Of a DNA stretch of 36,850 bases, positions 14,937 through 36,850 are shown piece by piece. Each line of letters opens with the position of its first letter. The first letter of the stretch is position 1. A program made the position numbers and the translations under genes. Origin of the DNA: Bowmanella yangjiangensis (GTDB lineage Bacteria; Pseudomonadota; Gammaproteobacteria; Enterobacterales; Alteromonadaceae); the NCBI RefSeq assembly GCF_017255015.1, contig NZ_JAFKCS010000020.1:1-36850 (forward strand). Reading direction: 5' to 3'. The notes beneath the pieces were generated by a model. The model made no database searches, was not told the DNA's origin, and saw only the letters and a program-made list of their open reading frames with translations.

Positions 14937-15223
14937 AACTCATTCCTTTTATACATTATGCCGCCCCGGCGCTCTGCTGAGGTGGCATAACATCAAGTGC
15001 TTTAACTTTTACCACAAAGCATTGTTCGAATTGCATCGAGCTGGTCGTTGATATAAGACGCTAGTGTTTACTCTGTTAATAAAGATCAGACATCCCTGCT
15101 ATGGAATGTATTTTTATCTGTTGGATGAAATGCTTGTTGGTGCCTTGGTTGGGAGTTCTAGCGTAGGGTGGTTTTAAACATGCTGGGGAGGGAGCAAGAT
15201 AAAGCCAAGGGAACATTTCTGAC
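14937..15223. other. Intergenic region between sohB and the 50-bp array
   Basis: Nearly 290 bp with no convincing ORF. A hairpin at 14956-14990 (TTATGCCGCC / GGTGGCATAA, one G-T pair) sits 20 bp after the sohB stop and may mark its 3' end, though no T-run follows. The rest shows nothing recognisable. Confidence 0.5.
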
Positions 15224-15390
15224 CGTCCATCCATGGACATCGCTGATGAGTATTCCCTAGTGCATCAGCATATCGTCCATCCATGGACATCGCTGATGAG
15301 TGTTCCCTACCACATCAGCATACCGTCCATCCATGGACATCGCTGATGAGTGTTCCTTACCACATCAGCATACCGTCCATCCATGGACAT
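15224..15390 (-). repeat. Array 1: 50-bp tandem repeat, three full units plus a partial unit
   Basis: Units begin at 15224, 15274, 15324 and 15374 (the last is 17 bp), exactly 50 bp apart. Copies 2 and 3 differ at one base; copy 1 is slightly more divergent. Read on the minus strand, each unit has the core CATGGATGGACGGTATGC preceded by GCGATGTC, then a variable block framed by inverted arms GCTGATG / CATCAGC. The core also holds GTCCAT-GG-ATGGAC, a 6-bp hairpin. On the minus strand the first unit starts right at the T-tract of the symporter terminator. A period of 50 excludes protein repeats. The same core recurs at 22963-23045. Confidence 0.95.
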
Positions 15391-15418
15391 AAAAAACCGC
15401 GGATTACCGCGGTTTTTT
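15391..15418. terminator. Bidirectional terminator at the 3' end of the DAACS symporter gene
   Basis: Perfect 12-bp stem AAAAAACCGCGG / CCGCGGTTTTTT around ATTA. On the minus strand it lies 13 bp after the symporter stop; its T-run is followed directly by the first unit of array 1. Confidence 0.95.
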
Positions 15419-15431
15419 GTCTTAAGCGTAT

Positions 15432-16778
15432 CTATTTATTTTTGTCGAAGTGCTCAAAATCGACATTTTCTTCACGAGCCCCAGCATTGGGATCGTTATA
15501 GGTATCAAGATCCAGTTCACCTTCGCTCTTTGCCACAATACAAGCTACAGTGCAGTCACCGGTGACATTGACCGCGGTACGGGTCATATCCAGCAACCGG
15601 TCAACCCCGATAATCAGGGCAATACCTTCCACCGGCAAACCAACCTGCTGCAACACCATCGCCAGCATAATCAGGCCCACGCCGGGCACACCTGCCGTAC
15701 CAATGGATGCCAGGGTCGCGGTCAGGATCACCATCAGATAGTCCGAAACCGACAAATCCACTCCATAGACCTGAGCAATAAATACCGTGGCAACACCCTG
15801 CATAATGGCAGTGCCATCCATATTAATAGTGGCGCCTAAAGGTACAGTGAAAGAGGCTACGGTGTTCTTTACACCCAATTTGTTGCGCGCCGTTTCCAAA
15901 GTAACCGGCAGAGTGGCGCTACTACTTGAGGTACTAAAGGCAAATAGCGCAGCGTCGCGCATTTTGCGGATCATAATGATTGGATTTAAACCGGCTAACA
16001 GCTTAAGTAGTAGCGGGTAGGAAATAAACGCATGGACCAATAGTACAAACAATACTAAGAAGAAGTATTTCAGCAAACTCGTGAAAGTGTCAAAACCAAT
16101 AGTGGCAAACAGTTTGGCCATCAGAGCCAACACGCCGTAAGGTGCTAAGTTCATTAGAATGGTCACCAGGCGCATAACGACTTTGTTTAAATCTTCGAAC
16201 AAATCGCCAAGCCGCTTACCGGCACTGCCTGACATGGCCATGGAAACACCAAATAACACCGAGAAGACAATAATTTGCAACATGTTTCCCTCAGCCATGG
16301 CATTGATCGGGTTAGTGGGAAACATATTGATGATAACGTCAGACAACGAGGGCGCTTCTTTGGCTGTAAAGCTTGTGTTGGTATCCAGGTTTATACCCTC
16401 ACCTGGTGACACAATTAACGCGAAAGAAACCGCAATAGTGATCGCCAATGCTGTGGTAAACAAATAGAGTAAAATTGATTTTCCGCCCAGACGCCCCAGC
16501 TTGCTTGGGTCTGAAAGGTTGCAGGTACCACAAACCAGTGATACAAAAACCAGCGGAACCACCAACATTTGTAAGCTGGCGATAAAGATTTTACCTATGA
16601 TATTAAATATACCTTCCACCAGAAGCGTATACGTAGAAATCTCCAGCCCTAATACCCGGAAGGTGAAATCTCCGCTATCATCAAACAGGGCTCGAAGCAG
16701 GGTTCCGATGAGGATCCCGGCTAACATGCCGAGGAAGATTCTGGTGGTAAGACTGTACTTAGTTGCAGTAGAGGCCAT
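15432..16778 (-). CDS. Dicarboxylate/amino acid:cation symporter (DAACS, GltP/GltT type)
   Basis: 448 residues with about eight membrane segments plus re-entrant loops. Family signatures are clear: the serine-rich re-entrant loop SSSSATLP at 284-291, NMDGT at 319-323 and the C-terminal DRLLDMTRTAVNVTGD, whose Asp/Arg/Asn contact the substrate. It imports glutamate, aspartate or C4-dicarboxylates with Na+ or H+. MASTATKYSLTTRIFLGMLAGI is a typical start. The C-terminal tail after residue 420 is acidic and cytoplasmic. It is monocistronic, convergent with sohB, and followed by terminator plus repeat array. Which substrate is used cannot be decided from sequence. Confidence 0.94.
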   Translation of the reverse strand: MASTATKYSLTTRIFLGMLAGILIGTLLRALFDDSGDFTFRVLGLEISTYTLLVEGIFNIIGKIFIASLQMLVVPLVFVSLVCGTCNLSDPSKLGRLGGKSILLYLFTTALAITIAVSFALIVSPGEGINLDTNTSFTAKEAPSLSDVIINMFPTNPINAMAEGNMLQIIVFSVLFGVSMAMSGSAGKRLGDLFEDLNKVVMRLVTILMNLAPYGVLALMAKLFATIGFDTFTSLLKYFFLVLFVLLVHAFISYPLLLKLLAGLNPIIMIRKMRDAALFAFSTSSSSATLPVTLETARNKLGVKNTVASFTVPLGATINMDGTAIMQGVATVFIAQVYGVDLSVSDYLMVILTATLASIGTAGVPGVGLIMLAMVLQQVGLPVEGIALIIGVDRLLDMTRTAVNVTGDCTVACIVAKSEGELDLDTYNDPNAGAREENVDFEHFDKNK

Positions 16779-19117: not shown

Positions 19118-19149
19118 AAAAACCGATGCCATGGCATCGGTTTTTTTTT
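19118..19149 (+). terminator. Rho-independent terminator after the Ig-like lipoprotein gene
   Basis: Stem AAAAACCGATG / CATCGGTTTTT around CCATGG, with a nine-base T-run. Confidence 0.93.
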
Positions 19150-21238: not shown

Positions 21239-22924
21239 TTGGAATCCTTCAATCAGTTCTTACTCTCACTGGACGGCATGCTCGGAAGTGCCGCCTGGTT
21301 TCCTTATGTACTCTTAGGCGTAGGCCTGTTTTTCACTATCTATTTGGGTTTTCCACAAATCCGATATTTTAAACATGCCTGGCTGGTGGTCAGCGGTAAG
21401 CTGGATAGAAAAGGGGCCCCTGGTGATACAACTCACTTTCAGGCTCTGACAACGGCATTATCAGGCACTGTGGGTACGGGTAACATCGGCGGGGTGGCTT
21501 TTGCTATCTTCCTTGGTGGCCCTGCGGCACTATTCTGGATGTGGGCAACCGCCTTTTTGGGTATGACCACCAAGTTTGTCGAAGTAACGCTTTCACACAA
21601 GTATCGGGTGAAAACCGAGGACGGCACTATGGCCGGTGGCCCTATGTATTACATGGATCGCCGTCTTAATATGAAGTGGTTGGCTATTGCCTTCGCCATT
21701 GCCACTGTCATCAGTTCTTTCGGTACAGGTAACCTGCCCCAAATCAATAATATCGCGCAGGGCATGCAGGCAACCTTTGGCTTAGAGCCAATGTTAACCG
21801 GTGGTGTACTGGCCGTGTTGCTGGCACTGGTTATTTTGGGCGGTATTCAACGTATCGCCAAAGTAACCTCTAAGGTCGTGCCTTTTATGTCAGTGCTATA
21901 CGTTATTGGTGCACTGGCGGTAATTTTGTACAACGTTGAAAATATCGGCCCTGCCTTCGCATCGGTCATTTCAGATGCCTTTACCGGCTCTGCTGCTGCC
22001 GGTGGTTTCCTGGGCGCGACTATTGCCTATGCTTTTAACCGTGGTGTTAACCGTGGCTTGTTTTCTAACGAAGCGGGTCAAGGTTCAGCCCCTATTGCCC
22101 ACGCTGCAGCCAAGGCGGATGAACCTGTATCTGAAGGTATGGTGTCTATCCTGGAACCTTTTATCGATACCATTATTATCTGTACTCTGACAGGCCTCGT
22201 TATCTTGTCCTCCGGTGTATGGAAAGAAAAATTCGATAACGAGTTTGAGCGCGCTGATATGAAGATTCTGGCCGGTCAGTATTCGGATCAGAATGATGAT
22301 GACCGTCATCAACTGTTCTTATATCTGAACAACGAGAAAGGCCATACTATCGAGCCCTATAACGGTAAGATTGAAGTTGTTTCAGGTAAAGCCATCAGCC
22401 GCAACTTCACTATTATCAATTCTCGCTCAGTAGCAGAAGATGTTGTCTTCAGTGTTGATGCCAAGGAAGATTTGTTTACGGGTACCTTGAATGTAAAAGA
22501 TGGTCGACTGCTTAAGGACAATATACTGGTGTCCGGCAAGTCTTTAGTGCATTCCGCGCAGTTAACTACGGTAGCCTTTACCCGAGGTTTCTTTGGTGAC
22601 TATGGCCAGTACATAGTGTCTATAGGTCTGTTGCTGTTTGCCTTTTCTACGGCGATTGCCTGGTCCTATTACGGCGACCGAGCTATGACCTATTTGTTGG
22701 GACCCCGCTCAGTTATGCCGTATAGGGTATTTTATGTGGCAGGCTTTTTCTGGGCCTCATTCTCTGACACCACCTTGGTCTGGAATCTGGCGGCGGTAGC
22801 CATTGTGGTGATGACCCTGCCGAACCTGTTCGGTATCATGGTGCTCCATAAGGAAATGAAGCAGACAGTGAATGAGTACTGGCGCGATTTCAAGGAAAAA
22901 CAGGCGAATAAAGATCAAGCCTGA
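21239..22924 (+). CDS. Alanine/glycine:cation symporter (AGCS, AlsT type) with a large extra-membrane insert
   Basis: 561 residues, versus about 450-490 usual for the family. AGCS landmarks include [21 protein letters not shown] (65-87), the [13 protein letters not shown] region, and the [19 protein letters not shown] block (273-291). It imports alanine or glycine with Na+. Residues of about 329-437, between TM segments ending [10 protein letters not shown] and starting [14 protein letters not shown], form a hydrophilic insert absent from standard AlsT, with beta-rich sequence such as [18 protein letters not shown]; it is likely an extra domain outside the membrane. The TTG start has AAGGGGAAA just upstream; the next Met (residue 14) would still keep the first membrane helix, so the start is fairly but not fully sure. 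A terminator and the second 50-bp array follow. Confidence 0.92.
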
Positions 22925-22935
22925 TAACCAATGAA

Positions 22936-22962
22936 AAGCGCGGCACAAGCCGCGCTTGTTTT
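22936..22962 (+). terminator. Rho-independent terminator after the alsT-like gene
   Basis: Perfect 9-bp stem AAGCGCGGC / GCCGCGCTT around ACAA, then GTTTT. The last T is directly joined to the first unit of array 2. Confidence 0.9.
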
Positions 22963-23045
22963 ATGTGCATGGATGGACGGTATGCCGGGGTTGCAGGGAG
23001 CCTTCACCGGCGATGTGCATGGATGGACGGTATGCCGGGGTTGCA
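22963..23045 (+). repeat. Array 2: 50-bp repeat, one full unit plus a partial unit, same family as array 1
   Basis: Units start at 22963 and 23013, 50 bp apart. Each opens ATGTG followed by CATGGATGGACGGTATGC, the core of array 1 in the opposite chromosomal orientation but the same orientation relative to its upstream gene and terminator. The variable block of the full unit is bounded by GCCGG and CCGGC, replacing GCTGATG / CATCAGC of array 1. The second unit matches for 33 bp, then diverges. Confidence 0.92.
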
Positions 23046-33273: not shown

Positions 33274-33451
33274 GCTGGCGGCCACTGCGAATATTATGGG
33301 CTAGAGCGATTTTTGCTGATGTGCATCACTAACGATTGGAGTATGATAGGCCAAACTGGATGCCTGATGTTTGAAAGTAGCGCAGAGTACACGGACTTCA
33401 GGTGAGGGAACCAATAAGCTCAAAACAACAAGAAAGCCTGGAGCTATTCCT

Positions 33452-34096
33452 TTGATAAAAATTTTCCTGGTTGACGACCATGATTTGGTACGTACGGGTA
33501 TCAAATTGATTTTGGACTCAGAGAAGTCCTTTGAAGTAATTGGCGAGGCCGATAGCGGGGAAGAGGCGGTCAAGTTTTGCCGTACCCAGCATCCTGACGT
33601 GGTCATGATGGACATGAACATGCCAGGAATAGGTGGCCTTGAAGCAACTAAGAAAATTCTTCGTCATAATCCCGATATCAAAGTGATTTTCCTGTCTATG
33701 TACAAGGAAAATCCAATTCCGGCCAAAGTGATGCAGGTGGGTGCCTGGGGTTTTGTGACCAAAGACGCCGAGCCAAAAGAAATGATTCAGGCGATTTTCC
33801 AGGTCCATGCAGGGCAAAAATACATTGCCTCGGATATTGCCCGTCAGATTGCGCTGGGCAAAATTGATACGCATCAGTCTGATCCTTTCCGCGAATTGTC
33901 GGAACGTGAGTTGCAGATCATGATTATGCTGACCAAAGGCGAGAAAGTACCTGATATTGCTACTCGACTCAGCATCAGTGCCAAAACCGTCAATACCTAT
34001 CGTTACCGTATGTTTGAAAAACTCGGTGTAACCGGCGATGTTGAGTTAACCCACCTGGCCCTCCGCCATAAACTCATCAGCCCTGAGCAAATTTGA
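33452..34096 (+). CDS. uvrY: Response regulator UvrY (GacA type)
   Basis: 214 residues. Receiver domain (1-120) with acidic pocket Asp8-Asp9, phospho-acceptor Asp54 in VVMMDMNMPGIGG, and switch Lys near 104 in FVTKDAE. LuxR-type HTH (about 145-205): LSERELQIMIMLTKGEKV, then ISAKTVNTYRYRMFEKLGV. Partner of the BarA (GacS) sensor kinase; activates CsrB/C-type small RNAs and so antagonises CsrA. The start is a TTG at 33452: LIKIFLVDDH aligns with the E. coli start MINVLLVDDH, and GGAG lies at 33440-33443. A longer frame from 33371 adds unrelated residues. As in enterobacteria and Vibrio, uvrC follows. Confidence 0.95.
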   Translation: MIKIFLVDDHDLVRTGIKLILDSEKSFEVIGEADSGEEAVKFCRTQHPDVVMMDMNMPGIGGLEATKKILRHNPDIKVIFLSMYKENPIPAKVMQVGAWGFVTKDAEPKEMIQAIFQVHAGQKYIASDIARQIALGKIDTHQSDPFRELSERELQIMIMLTKGEKVPDIATRLSISAKTVNTYRYRMFEKLGVTGDVELTHLALRHKLISPEQI

Positions 34097-34178: not shown

Positions 34179-36020
34179 ATGAGCGAACAGCCAGTTGAAA
34201 GCGTTACAGCCTTTGACCATAAGGCATTTTTAAAAAATCTGACCGGGGCGCCTGGGGTTTATCGTATGTATAACCTCAAAGGTGAGGTGATTTATGTCGG
34301 TAAGGCGAAGAACCTTAAAAAGCGGGTATCGAGCTACTTTCGCACTAACCTGGACAGCATAAAAACCCAGTCGCTGGTTAAACAAATTCAACATATGGAT
34401 GTGACGGTAACCCATACCGAAACCGAAGCCTTCATTCTTGAAAATAACTACATCAAAAAGTATCGGCCTCGTTACAACGTGCTGCTTCGAGACGATAAGA
34501 GCTACCCCTACATTCTGCTAACCGAACACCAGCACCCGCGATTGACCATACATCGCGGTGGTCGCAAACCCAAAGGCGAGTACTTTGGCCCTTATCCCAG
34601 TGCCTGGGCGGTACGGGAAAGCTTGCGTACTATGCAAAAACTGTTTCCGGTACGTCAGTGTGAAGACGGGGAATACAAAGCACGCACCCGACCTTGTTTG
34701 CAATACCAGCTTAAGCGCTGCGCTGGCCCTTGTGTACAGGGACTGGTCAGCGATGTTGAGTATGAACAGCAAGTGCAACTGGCCAGATTGTTCCTCAAAG
34801 GGAAAAACGCCGAGGTCATTGATGCCTTGGTCAAGAAAATGGAGCAGGCCAGTGAAGAGTTAAAATTTGAGGCCGCCGCCAGATTTCGCGACCAGATATC
34901 AGCCTTGCGAAAAGTGCAGGAACAGCAATGGGTTAGCGGCGATCAGCCGGAAATGGACGTGTTTGGTTTTGCCTATCGCAATGGTATTGCCAGTATTCAG
35001 GGCTTTTTTATTCGCGATAACAAACTACTGGGCAGTAAGAGCTATTTCCCTAAAGTGCCGGCTGATGTCAGCCCACAGGAAGTCTTTCAATCTTTCTTGT
35101 TGCAGTATTACCTGGCCGATAATAAATCTATTCCCCGCCAGATAGTGTTGCCGATGGTCCTGGACGATGCTGAGGCCATTGAAGAGCTGTTAAGCCGTCA
35201 GGCTGGCCGTAAAGTACAGTTTTTCCAGGGCGTCAGGGAAGAAAAACGCCGTTACCTGAAACTGGCTAATACTAATGCCGAAACGGCATTGGAAGCACAG
35301 CAAAGCAGTCAGAAATCGGTATTTGCCCGCTATCTGGAACTGGAGCAGGTATTAGATCTGGATACCCCGATTCAGCGCATGGAATGTTTCGATATCAGTC
35401 ATACGTCGGGCCAGCAAACCGTAGCGTCCTGCGTAGTGTTTAATCGCGAAGGGCCGTTTAAAAGTGACTACCGTCGCTACAATATCGAAGGAATAACGCC
35501 AGGGGACGACTACGCTGCTATGGATCAGGCACTTAGGCGCCGTTACAGCAAAATTACCGACCAGAGTAAAATCCCTGATATTTTGTTTATCGATGGCGGA
35601 AAGGGCCAGCTTGCCCAGGCTGAAGCCTGTTTTGAGAACTGGCCGCACGCGAAAATGCCCATGCTGATTGGGGTTGCCAAAGGCACCAGCCGCAAACCTG
35701 GTCTGGAAACCCTGATTCTGGCCGGTAGCCATGCCACTATTCCCATGCAGGCAAATTCGTCGGCACTGCACTTAATTCAGCATATTCGCGATGAAGCTCA
35801 CCGCTTTGCCATTACCGGTCACAGGGCACGCCGTCAAAAAGTGAAAACCCAATCCAAGCTGGAAAGTATTCCAGGGGTAGGGGCCAAACGTCGACAAAGC
35901 CTGCTTAAATATATGGGCGGTATGCAGGAAGTATTGGCTGCCAGTGTTGAAGAATTAGCCAAAGTGCCGGGAATTAGTGAAGAACTTGCGCTGATTATCC
36001 ATGAACACCTGCATTTGTAG
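34179..36020 (+). CDS. uvrC: Excinuclease ABC subunit C
   Basis: 613 residues, standard UvrC length. Makes both incisions around DNA lesions in nucleotide excision repair with UvrA/UvrB. GIY-YIG nuclease for the 3' cut (about 20-100: [21 protein letters not shown]), a cysteine cluster typical of UvrC ([13 protein letters not shown]), UVR motif (about 205-240, [21 protein letters not shown]), RNase H-like domain for the 5' cut (from about 380: [18 protein letters not shown]), and C-terminal tandem helix-hairpin-helix ([16 protein letters not shown]). Ribosome site before the ATG is weak. It lies 82 bp after uvrY and 61 bp before pgsA, the classical order. Confidence 0.98.
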
Positions 36021-36799: not shown

Positions 36800-36850
36800 G
36801 CGGGAATAGCTCAGTTGGTAGAGCACAACCTTGCCAAGGTTGGGGTCGCG
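36800..36850 (+). tRNA. tRNA-Gly (GCC), 5' part; cut by the window end
   Basis: GCGGGAATAGCTCAGTTGG is the acceptor arm plus D arm of gammaproteobacterial tRNA-Gly. The anticodon stem-loop CCTTGCCAAGG has anticodon GCC at 36833-36835. The variable loop is reached; the T arm lies outside. The uvrC-pgsA-glyW order is known in enterobacteria. Confidence 0.95.

Follow-up and report, generated by a model that had tools for sequence, protein, structure and literature searches.

The tandem array directly behind alsT in the window (the whole 36,850-nt stretch of Bowmanella yangjiangensis DNA analysed here) is a partly decayed, weak copy of a dispersed hairpin repeat family. Read together, the copies define a typical unit, ATG-YYC-ANGGAT-GRR-CGGTAT followed by a second hairpin: the first hairpin (H1) has a 4-bp stem and the loop A(N)GGAU, and the second (H2) has a variable outer stem and a short inner stem with a loop that is again A(N)GGA. 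Comparison across copies supports a unit secondary structure that is selected, or at least maintained, and the fixed A(N)GGA loop on changing stems, which the initial annotation of this DNA had missed, is the more telling half of the pattern. The loop fits a CsrA/RsmA site, a match of motif and partner that makes these loops candidate sites, and we judge the chances about even that the family consists of proliferating CsrA-site hairpins that are transcribed by read-through and work like CsrB.

Two arrays in the window start at intrinsic terminators

The window holds two arrays, each behind its own gene and terminator, with the following features:

15222..15390, minus strand: array 1, the better preserved of the two, with three full 50-nt units plus a fourth H1
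15391..15418, minus strand: intrinsic terminator of the gltP-like gene, CCGCGG-TAAT-CCGCGG with T-run 15396-15391 (sequence and strict test)
15432..16778, minus strand: GltP-like symporter, glutamate/dicarboxylate family (best NCBIfam match GltP, 267.5 bits, below the cut-off of 638)
21239..22924, plus strand: alsT/agcS, amino acid carrier protein (TIGR00835 agcS, 606.8 bits against a cut-off of 272.65)
22936..22962, plus strand: alsT intrinsic terminator, hairpin 22936-22957, T-run ending at 22962 (terminator scan and strict test)
22963..23012, plus strand: unit 1 of array 2, 50 nt, type A (repeat family; row 13 of alignment A2)
22965..22978, plus strand: H1 of unit 1, GUGC[AUGGAU]GGAC, with one G.G mismatch and loop 22969-22974 (sequence and family covariation of the stem)
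22984..23011, plus strand: H2 of unit 1, outer arms GCCGG 22984-22988 and CCGGC 23007-23011 (sequence)
23013..23045, plus strand: unit 2 of array 2, truncated, H1 at 23015-23028 with the same G.G mismatch as unit 1

The initial annotation had placed the start of array 2 at the alsT terminator with a 50-bp period, and both claims hold: the array begins on the first base after the T-run, and two identical 33-mers, 22963-22995 and 23013-23045, start 50 nt apart (the sequence of unit 1 is ATGTGCATGGATGGACGGTATGCCGGGGTTGCAGGGAGCCTTCACCGGCG). Arrays 1 and 2 also have the same orientation relative to their own genes, as had been stated, because both start at the base after the T-run of the upstream terminator. 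The variable arms GCCGG/CCGGC do occupy the positions of GCTGATG/CATCAGC in array 1, but both arms are present in unit 1 only; there the inner GC/GC stem of H2 encloses the loop AGGGA at 22995-22999, and unit 2 retains the 5' arm without the CCGGC partner and without a GGA loop. The "same core" ascribed to both arrays is related in sequence, yet in array 2 it carries the G.G mismatch in both copies, and the core of the units, unmentioned as such in the annotation, is the hairpin itself, GUCC[AUGGAU]GGAC.

Tandem Repeats Finder (TRF) reports 3.4 copies of 50 nt at 94% for array 1, and the two arrays are related on opposite strands through inverted repeats I1-I3, which are 77-83% complementary. 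The fold check that had been proposed for the unit RNA gave a divided answer: array 1 (149 nt) folds with z -3.46 on the read-through strand and z -5.09 on the complement, whereas array 2 alone is close to shuffles (z -0.16 for 83 nt, z +0.46 for the 50-nt unit) and, judged by energy as the annotation had proposed, would fail. Structural support for array 2 comes from covariation across copies and not from its own folding energy.

Rfam has no match over the arrays in the window at gathering threshold; the array 2 region gives only a chance-level PrrB_RsmZ match (E 3.4), to the terminator, and no family match was found among 13 array loci at E 0.3. Sub-threshold matches to P9 and Phe_leader near array starts (L031:1572-1637, minus strand; L241:1394-1503, plus strand) may perhaps be to terminators. 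A consensus scan detected no promoter-like site at array 1, one near array 2 but inside alsT (22811-22839, with 0.5 expected by chance), and no terminator-like site 3' of array 2 up to 23300; the gltP-like terminator passes the strict test described below, yet is absent from the output of the consensus terminator scan. Elsewhere in the window, a perfect palindrome, AAAAACCGATGCCATGGCATCGGTTTTT, lies at 19118-19145 and is perhaps a two-way terminator, and a tRNA gene (Rfam RF00005) at 36800-36850 on the plus strand is cut by the window end.

Arrays in the genome adjoin terminators on the read-through strand

A DNA search and a one-mismatch pattern search located 15 array loci in the Bowmanella yangjiangensis genome, and more diverged copies may exist beyond these. 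In all 15 arrays the first unit adjoins the T-run of an intrinsic terminator on the read-through strand, under a strict test by which 116 of 113,960 sampled positions qualify in a 400-kb control sample (20 hand-chosen 20-kb stretches from six contigs, without known arrays). The test lists 16 'first' units in these loci, the sixteenth being an internal unit of the C1 porin array; units with fewer than 45 upstream bases were left out and identical upstream ends merged. It replaced an earlier, lax test, which 229 of 529 T-rich control positions had passed and from which 9 of 176 units were excluded for too short an upstream sequence. The terminator hairpins vary from locus to locus and are therefore part of the genes rather than of the repeat.

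The hairpins downstream of these junctions are strongly biased in strand. Within 250 nt after the T-run, the 15 loci contain 48 sense A(N)GGA hairpins (one of which overlaps an H1, and to which the alsT array contributes its two H1 loops only) against 4 antisense ones; two permuted control loops give 4 in all with both strands together, and the 250 nt upstream give 2 and 0. Outside arrays, the 400-kb sample contains 14 perfect 4-bp A(N)GGA hairpins, within the 10-30 obtained for seven control loops, and therefore no excess is seen there. A recurrent block, roughly GGGCAGAWAACTGCTCCTGCGTTWTCTGCACTTCCGCCATCCCTGGCGGTCG, lies 3' of several arrays and carries GGA hairpins on the opposite strand; it follows the arrays at L053, L057 and L061 and, in the window genome, at L005 (C90), L037 (C667) and L036 (C223), and complementarity to H1 loops is seen for some of the loops in the block.

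The genes upstream of the 15 arrays encode AlsT, the GltP-like protein (below cut-off), PitA (PHO4), an FGE-sulfatase/PEGA protein, isocitrate dehydrogenase, BamB, Porin_7, peptidase M3, AcnB, Mdh, a chemotaxis receptor (below cut-offs), TypA (cut by the locus end, below cut-off), L33, Rsd and AsnB. The possible link to transporters raised by the first two host genes finds no support in this list: three of the 15 are transporters and one is a porin, the rest being metabolic, translation, envelope, chemotaxis, peptidase or regulatory genes, and the link therefore looks like chance. Three of the 15 are TCA-cycle genes, an observation made after the fact.

Such a placement would also suit a local 3'-end element, with hairpins acting in cis on read-through RNA, with or without CsrA, for instance as a block to 3' exonucleases or an insulator of the next gene, and with no titration in trans. 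The fixed position after terminators, mostly on one strand in this genome, and the housekeeping character of upstream genes such as rpmG, mdh, acnB, typA and icd are consistent with this reading. A cis role would not need the A(N)GGA loop, however; few terminators carry arrays (15 arrays, compared with 239 strict terminators in the 400-kb sample alone), and sites are gained and lost. We regard a purely local element as improbable.

Stems covary around a constant loop

Two unit spacings were aligned, type A of 50 nt and type B of 52 nt, both with the H2 loop starting at base 33. The two alignments, A2 and A3, were selected by spacing and loop, not by pairing, and one row of 15 for type A, a truncated type-B unit, was removed before A2 was made. 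Paired cells amount to 93.9% in type A (14 units) and 94.7% in type B (13 units). Changes on both sides are found in 9 of 14 pairs of type A and 8 of 13 of type B, numbers reached by 0/500 and 4/500 shuffles, respectively; each type has 25 double-change cells, which none of 500 shuffles reaches. Covariation, which the initial annotation had asked to see examined, is present in both unit types, with a score reached by 0/500 shuffles in either. Further pair types behave like shuffles in type A (223/500) and are mildly unusual in type B (12/500), and slid structures give far lower values for both paired cells and covariation score.

At least 176 units were collected, a count biased by the Y..R stem pattern used to find them. 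Two pattern scans in which H1 stem positions 2 and 3 were left free are unbiased for those two positions only; the outer G-C pair, the closing C-G pair and the loop GGAT were fixed, and the window genome was counted in both scans. They matched 15 of 369 genomes of the class and 7 of 59 of the family, and the reversed pattern matched none in either. All 56 sites outside the Bowmanella yangjiangensis genome pair at both free positions (53 Watson-Crick, 3 with G-U), using eight Watson-Crick combinations and two with a G-U pair. When each sequence is counted once per genome, 30 of 32 sites have Watson-Crick pairs at both positions; shuffles average 10.6 and reach at most 18. In the genome of the window itself 10 of 12 sites pair, the two unpaired being those of array 2. 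The secondary structure that had been proposed from two arrays is thereby supported across copies as selected, or at least maintained.

The loop of H2 is conserved as well: GGA lies in the terminal loop of 137 of 166 distinct H2 folds (mean 24 and maximum 33 in 20 shuffled sets), and a perfect 3-bp stem surrounds A(N)GGA in 99 of 168 H2 regions, with control loops yielding 2 for A(N)GAG, 1 for A(N)AGG, 20 for T(N)GGA and 5 for the reverse complement. Plain tandem duplication with chance pairing and unconstrained structure would explain an array 2 that folds like shuffles, but the covariation across genomes, the loop conservation and the terminator junction far exceed their controls and contradict it at the level of the family, leaving it exceedingly unlikely.

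The family is spread among Gammaproteobacteria

Scanning named genomes with ATGTYCANGGATGRACGG returned at least 118 stretches. Among the matches listed, 104 of 118 are gammaproteobacterial, or only 'Proteobacteria/Pseudomonadota', by record title (one is Lautropia); 92 of these 104 have H1 followed by GGTA, and 58 also have an H2 with a perfect 3-bp A(N)GGA hairpin. The 14 listed matches with other titles include one with H1-GGTA and none that adds the H2 hairpin.

First units adjoin a strict terminator in 36 of 101 cases in the named-genome set (among the matches listed), 9 of 21 in the class set, 14 of 21 in the family set and 2 of 5 in viral contigs. Compared with 15 of 15 in the window genome, the terminator lock is therefore strong in Bowmanella yangjiangensis and partial in other taxa. 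Some contigs of metagenome-assembled genomes (MAGs) have adjoining units in both orientations (L072, L146, L151; MAG Kmv18), and these clusters are more REP/BIME-like than the window arrays. Loci L249 and L254 (G379) carry units with GCAC/GTGC stems and a terminator-like hairpin about 80 bases after the unit start; these units are possibly free-standing RNA.

Orthologous sites turn over among close relatives

The gltP site is occupied in all three Bowmanella-like genomes and the alsT site in two of the three, and neither is occupied in the other relatives examined. An array behind gltP is present in Bowmanella pacifica and B. denitrificans; it is found in none of the 29 relatives with a fetched locus (58 same-family relatives were searched) and is also absent from two Lacimicrobium records, of which one is included in the 29. 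At this site the stems vary among close relatives with pairing kept: the outer H2 stem is GCTGATG/CATCAGC in the window, GCTGACG/CGTCAGC in B. pacifica and GTCGGTG/CACCGAC in B. denitrificans, and the H1 stem is GTCC/GGAC in the first two and ATCC/GGAT in the third.

Behind alsT, no array was found at 18 full orthologs (from 20 chosen family genomes), and the site is empty in the two Lacimicrobium. B. pacifica has one H1 there (GTCC/GGAC), then the opposite-strand block, B. denitrificans has a TTATGTC string only, and Aliiglaciecola sp. CAU 1673 (G381) has a closely similar terminator hairpin with nothing 3' of it. Other sites are held in common with B. pacifica (mdh and rpmG), with B. denitrificans (acnB and the FGE-sulfatase gene) and with Aliiglaciecola sp. 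CAU 1673 (rpmG). This mixed occupancy indicates persistence of the family at part of its sites, with gain, loss or exchange at the remainder.

Turnover of this kind is what REP- or MITE-like mobile DNA would produce, and this is the main rival. The hairpins would then form in single-stranded DNA as substrates of a transposase or of replication slippage, with no role for CsrA; the enzyme would read the A(N)GGA loop, and terminators would be harmless landing sites. Besides turnover among close relatives (the alsT site being occupied in the window and in B. pacifica), the exact junction to the T-run, the inverted and two-strand clusters in some MAGs and the complement of array 1, which folds at least as well as the read-through strand, agree with mobile DNA, as does the statement that REPs lie predominantly 3' of coding regions (PMC3733652).

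The GTAG- and CGTC-tagged REP/BIME elements, as described there, resemble the arrays in being short extragenic palindromes with variable stems, mostly 3' of genes (PMC3733652). The family likewise is an extragenic palindromic repeat in many copies, with 15 loci in this genome. The arrays differ in having two hairpins per unit, a constant A(N)GGA loop, a head-to-tail arrangement and, in this genome, a lock to terminators. The window units have no GTAG tag; elsewhere, one subfamily contains a GTAG string (CGGTAGTAGGG), and a CGTC read on the opposite strand falls within the H1 stem region and overlaps it. In the genomes sampled, Y1_Tnp genes occur in 10 of 14 carriers and in 20 of 26 non-carriers picked for comparison, no more often in the former, and they are missing from carrier G235 (completeness 100). 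The two Y1_Tnp loci of the window genome lack the searched unit strings beyond short fragments and are not flanked by H1 units as a RAYT gene would be; a RAYT/Y1 transposase as the mover is not supported. A transposase rule would also need to agree, by accident, with both the CsrA loop rule and the 48:4 strand bias. Mobile DNA with no link to CsrA appears to us possible but rather doubtful.

The loops resemble CsrA sites

The loops read CANGGAUG or CAGGA(U/A/C)G, matching the SELEX consensus of CsrA and the CsrB repeats. In the SELEX work, the consensus is RUACARGGAUGU, GGA lies in a hairpin loop in 51 of 55 ligands, 44 have six-base loops, the hairpins mostly have four or fewer base pairs, and the CsrB repeats are given as CAGGA(U/A/C)G (PMC7652899). 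Units with GUAC[ANGGAU]GUAC, close to or at the consensus, occur in G111, G228 and G327 of the class sample and in G379 of the family sample.

The window genome has a csrA gene, and 51 of the first 52 residues of its product are identical to PDB chain 1y00 (Carbon storage regulator), and both L4 and R44 are retained. We take this chain to be E. coli CsrA. Presence of csrA does not separate carriers (12 of 14) from 26 evenly picked non-carriers (23 of 26) and has no power as a discriminator; carrier G123, 95% complete, shows no csrA. In the window, a response regulator gene (33371-34096, plus strand), recognized by eye, directly precedes a uvrC-like gene (34179-36020, plus strand), presumably the usual place of uvrY/gacA, which in other Gammaproteobacteria is the activator of CsrB-type sRNAs.

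Several known RNAs share parts of this design. CsrB, CsrC, RsmY and RsmZ have several GGA-loop hairpins and CAGGA(U/A/C)G repeats, as the array family does, and in Pseudoalteromonas the CsrA-sequestering sRNAs Pf1-Pf3 include two, Pf2 and Pf3, with 21 and 9 GGA motifs (PMC11882849). CsrB-type sRNAs are genes with their own promoter and terminator, however, whereas the arrays are dispersed repeats after the terminators of other genes; the consensus scan gives array 2 neither, and the arrays match no CsrB/RsmZ model of Rfam.

The nearest precedent for the location after a first terminator and for a read-through origin is E. coli RrA/RrB/RrF. These RNAs are made by read-through of the first terminator and bind CsrA in vitro through GGA loop sites, and deletion and overexpression of RrB have modest effects only (PMC8144298). 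They differ from the arrays in lying between two rRNA-operon terminators, in three copies more than 98% identical, and in not forming a repeat family; no second terminator is seen 3' of array 2. Xanthomonas RsmU, in the portion of its description consulted, is likewise an RsmA-binding RNA from an mRNA 3' end, but it comes from one locus by processing of a 3' UTR, with no tandem units described in that portion, and its GGA mutant still bound RsmA (PMC7694677). Full-text literature searches, judged from titles and abstract starts, returned no description of the present repeat family.

Discussion

We propose that each array is a copy of a dispersed, still turning-over hairpin-repeat family, whose 50-52-nt unit would give two RNA hairpins, each presenting the A(N)GGA loop as a putative CsrA/RsmA binding site. 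The arrays would enter RNA only when polymerase reads through the upstream terminator; CsrA dimers would then bind the loops of the read-through tail in pairs, and free CsrA would fall in proportion to read-through and to transcription of the upstream gene, as it does with CsrB made from its own promoter, with a possible benefit to the cell.

Several observations weigh against a CsrA decoy. A position 3' of a terminator should mean low dosage. The core stem of array 2 is mismatched and the array folds like shuffles, and the complement of array 1 folds better relative to shuffles than the read-through strand does (z -5.09 against z -3.46). Many units in other taxa lie off terminators, some clusters use both strands, an opposite-strand block of GGA hairpins stands 3' of several arrays, and the further pair types of type A do not depart from shuffles (223/500). 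The presence of csrA in carriers and non-carriers alike and the modest effects of altering RrB in E. coli point the same way.

This regularity at family level would surprise a specialist, and its candidate partner is named and easy to test, although the focal copy is degenerate. If the loops bind CsrA, its availability would be set by CsrB-type sRNAs together with short arrays behind ordinary genes, and arrays of CsrA sites would be gained and lost within a genus. More tentatively, the family may represent mobile RNA modules, widespread in Gammaproteobacteria, that place ready-made CsrA sites at transcript 3' ends and thus form a distributed read-through decoy, a transposable wiring of a global regulator. 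Even without CsrA, loops that stay constant while the stems change freely suggest a factor that reads the repeats; if the proposal is true, the family would have a defined molecular partner and could serve to test directly in what way extragenic repeats of bacteria are useful.
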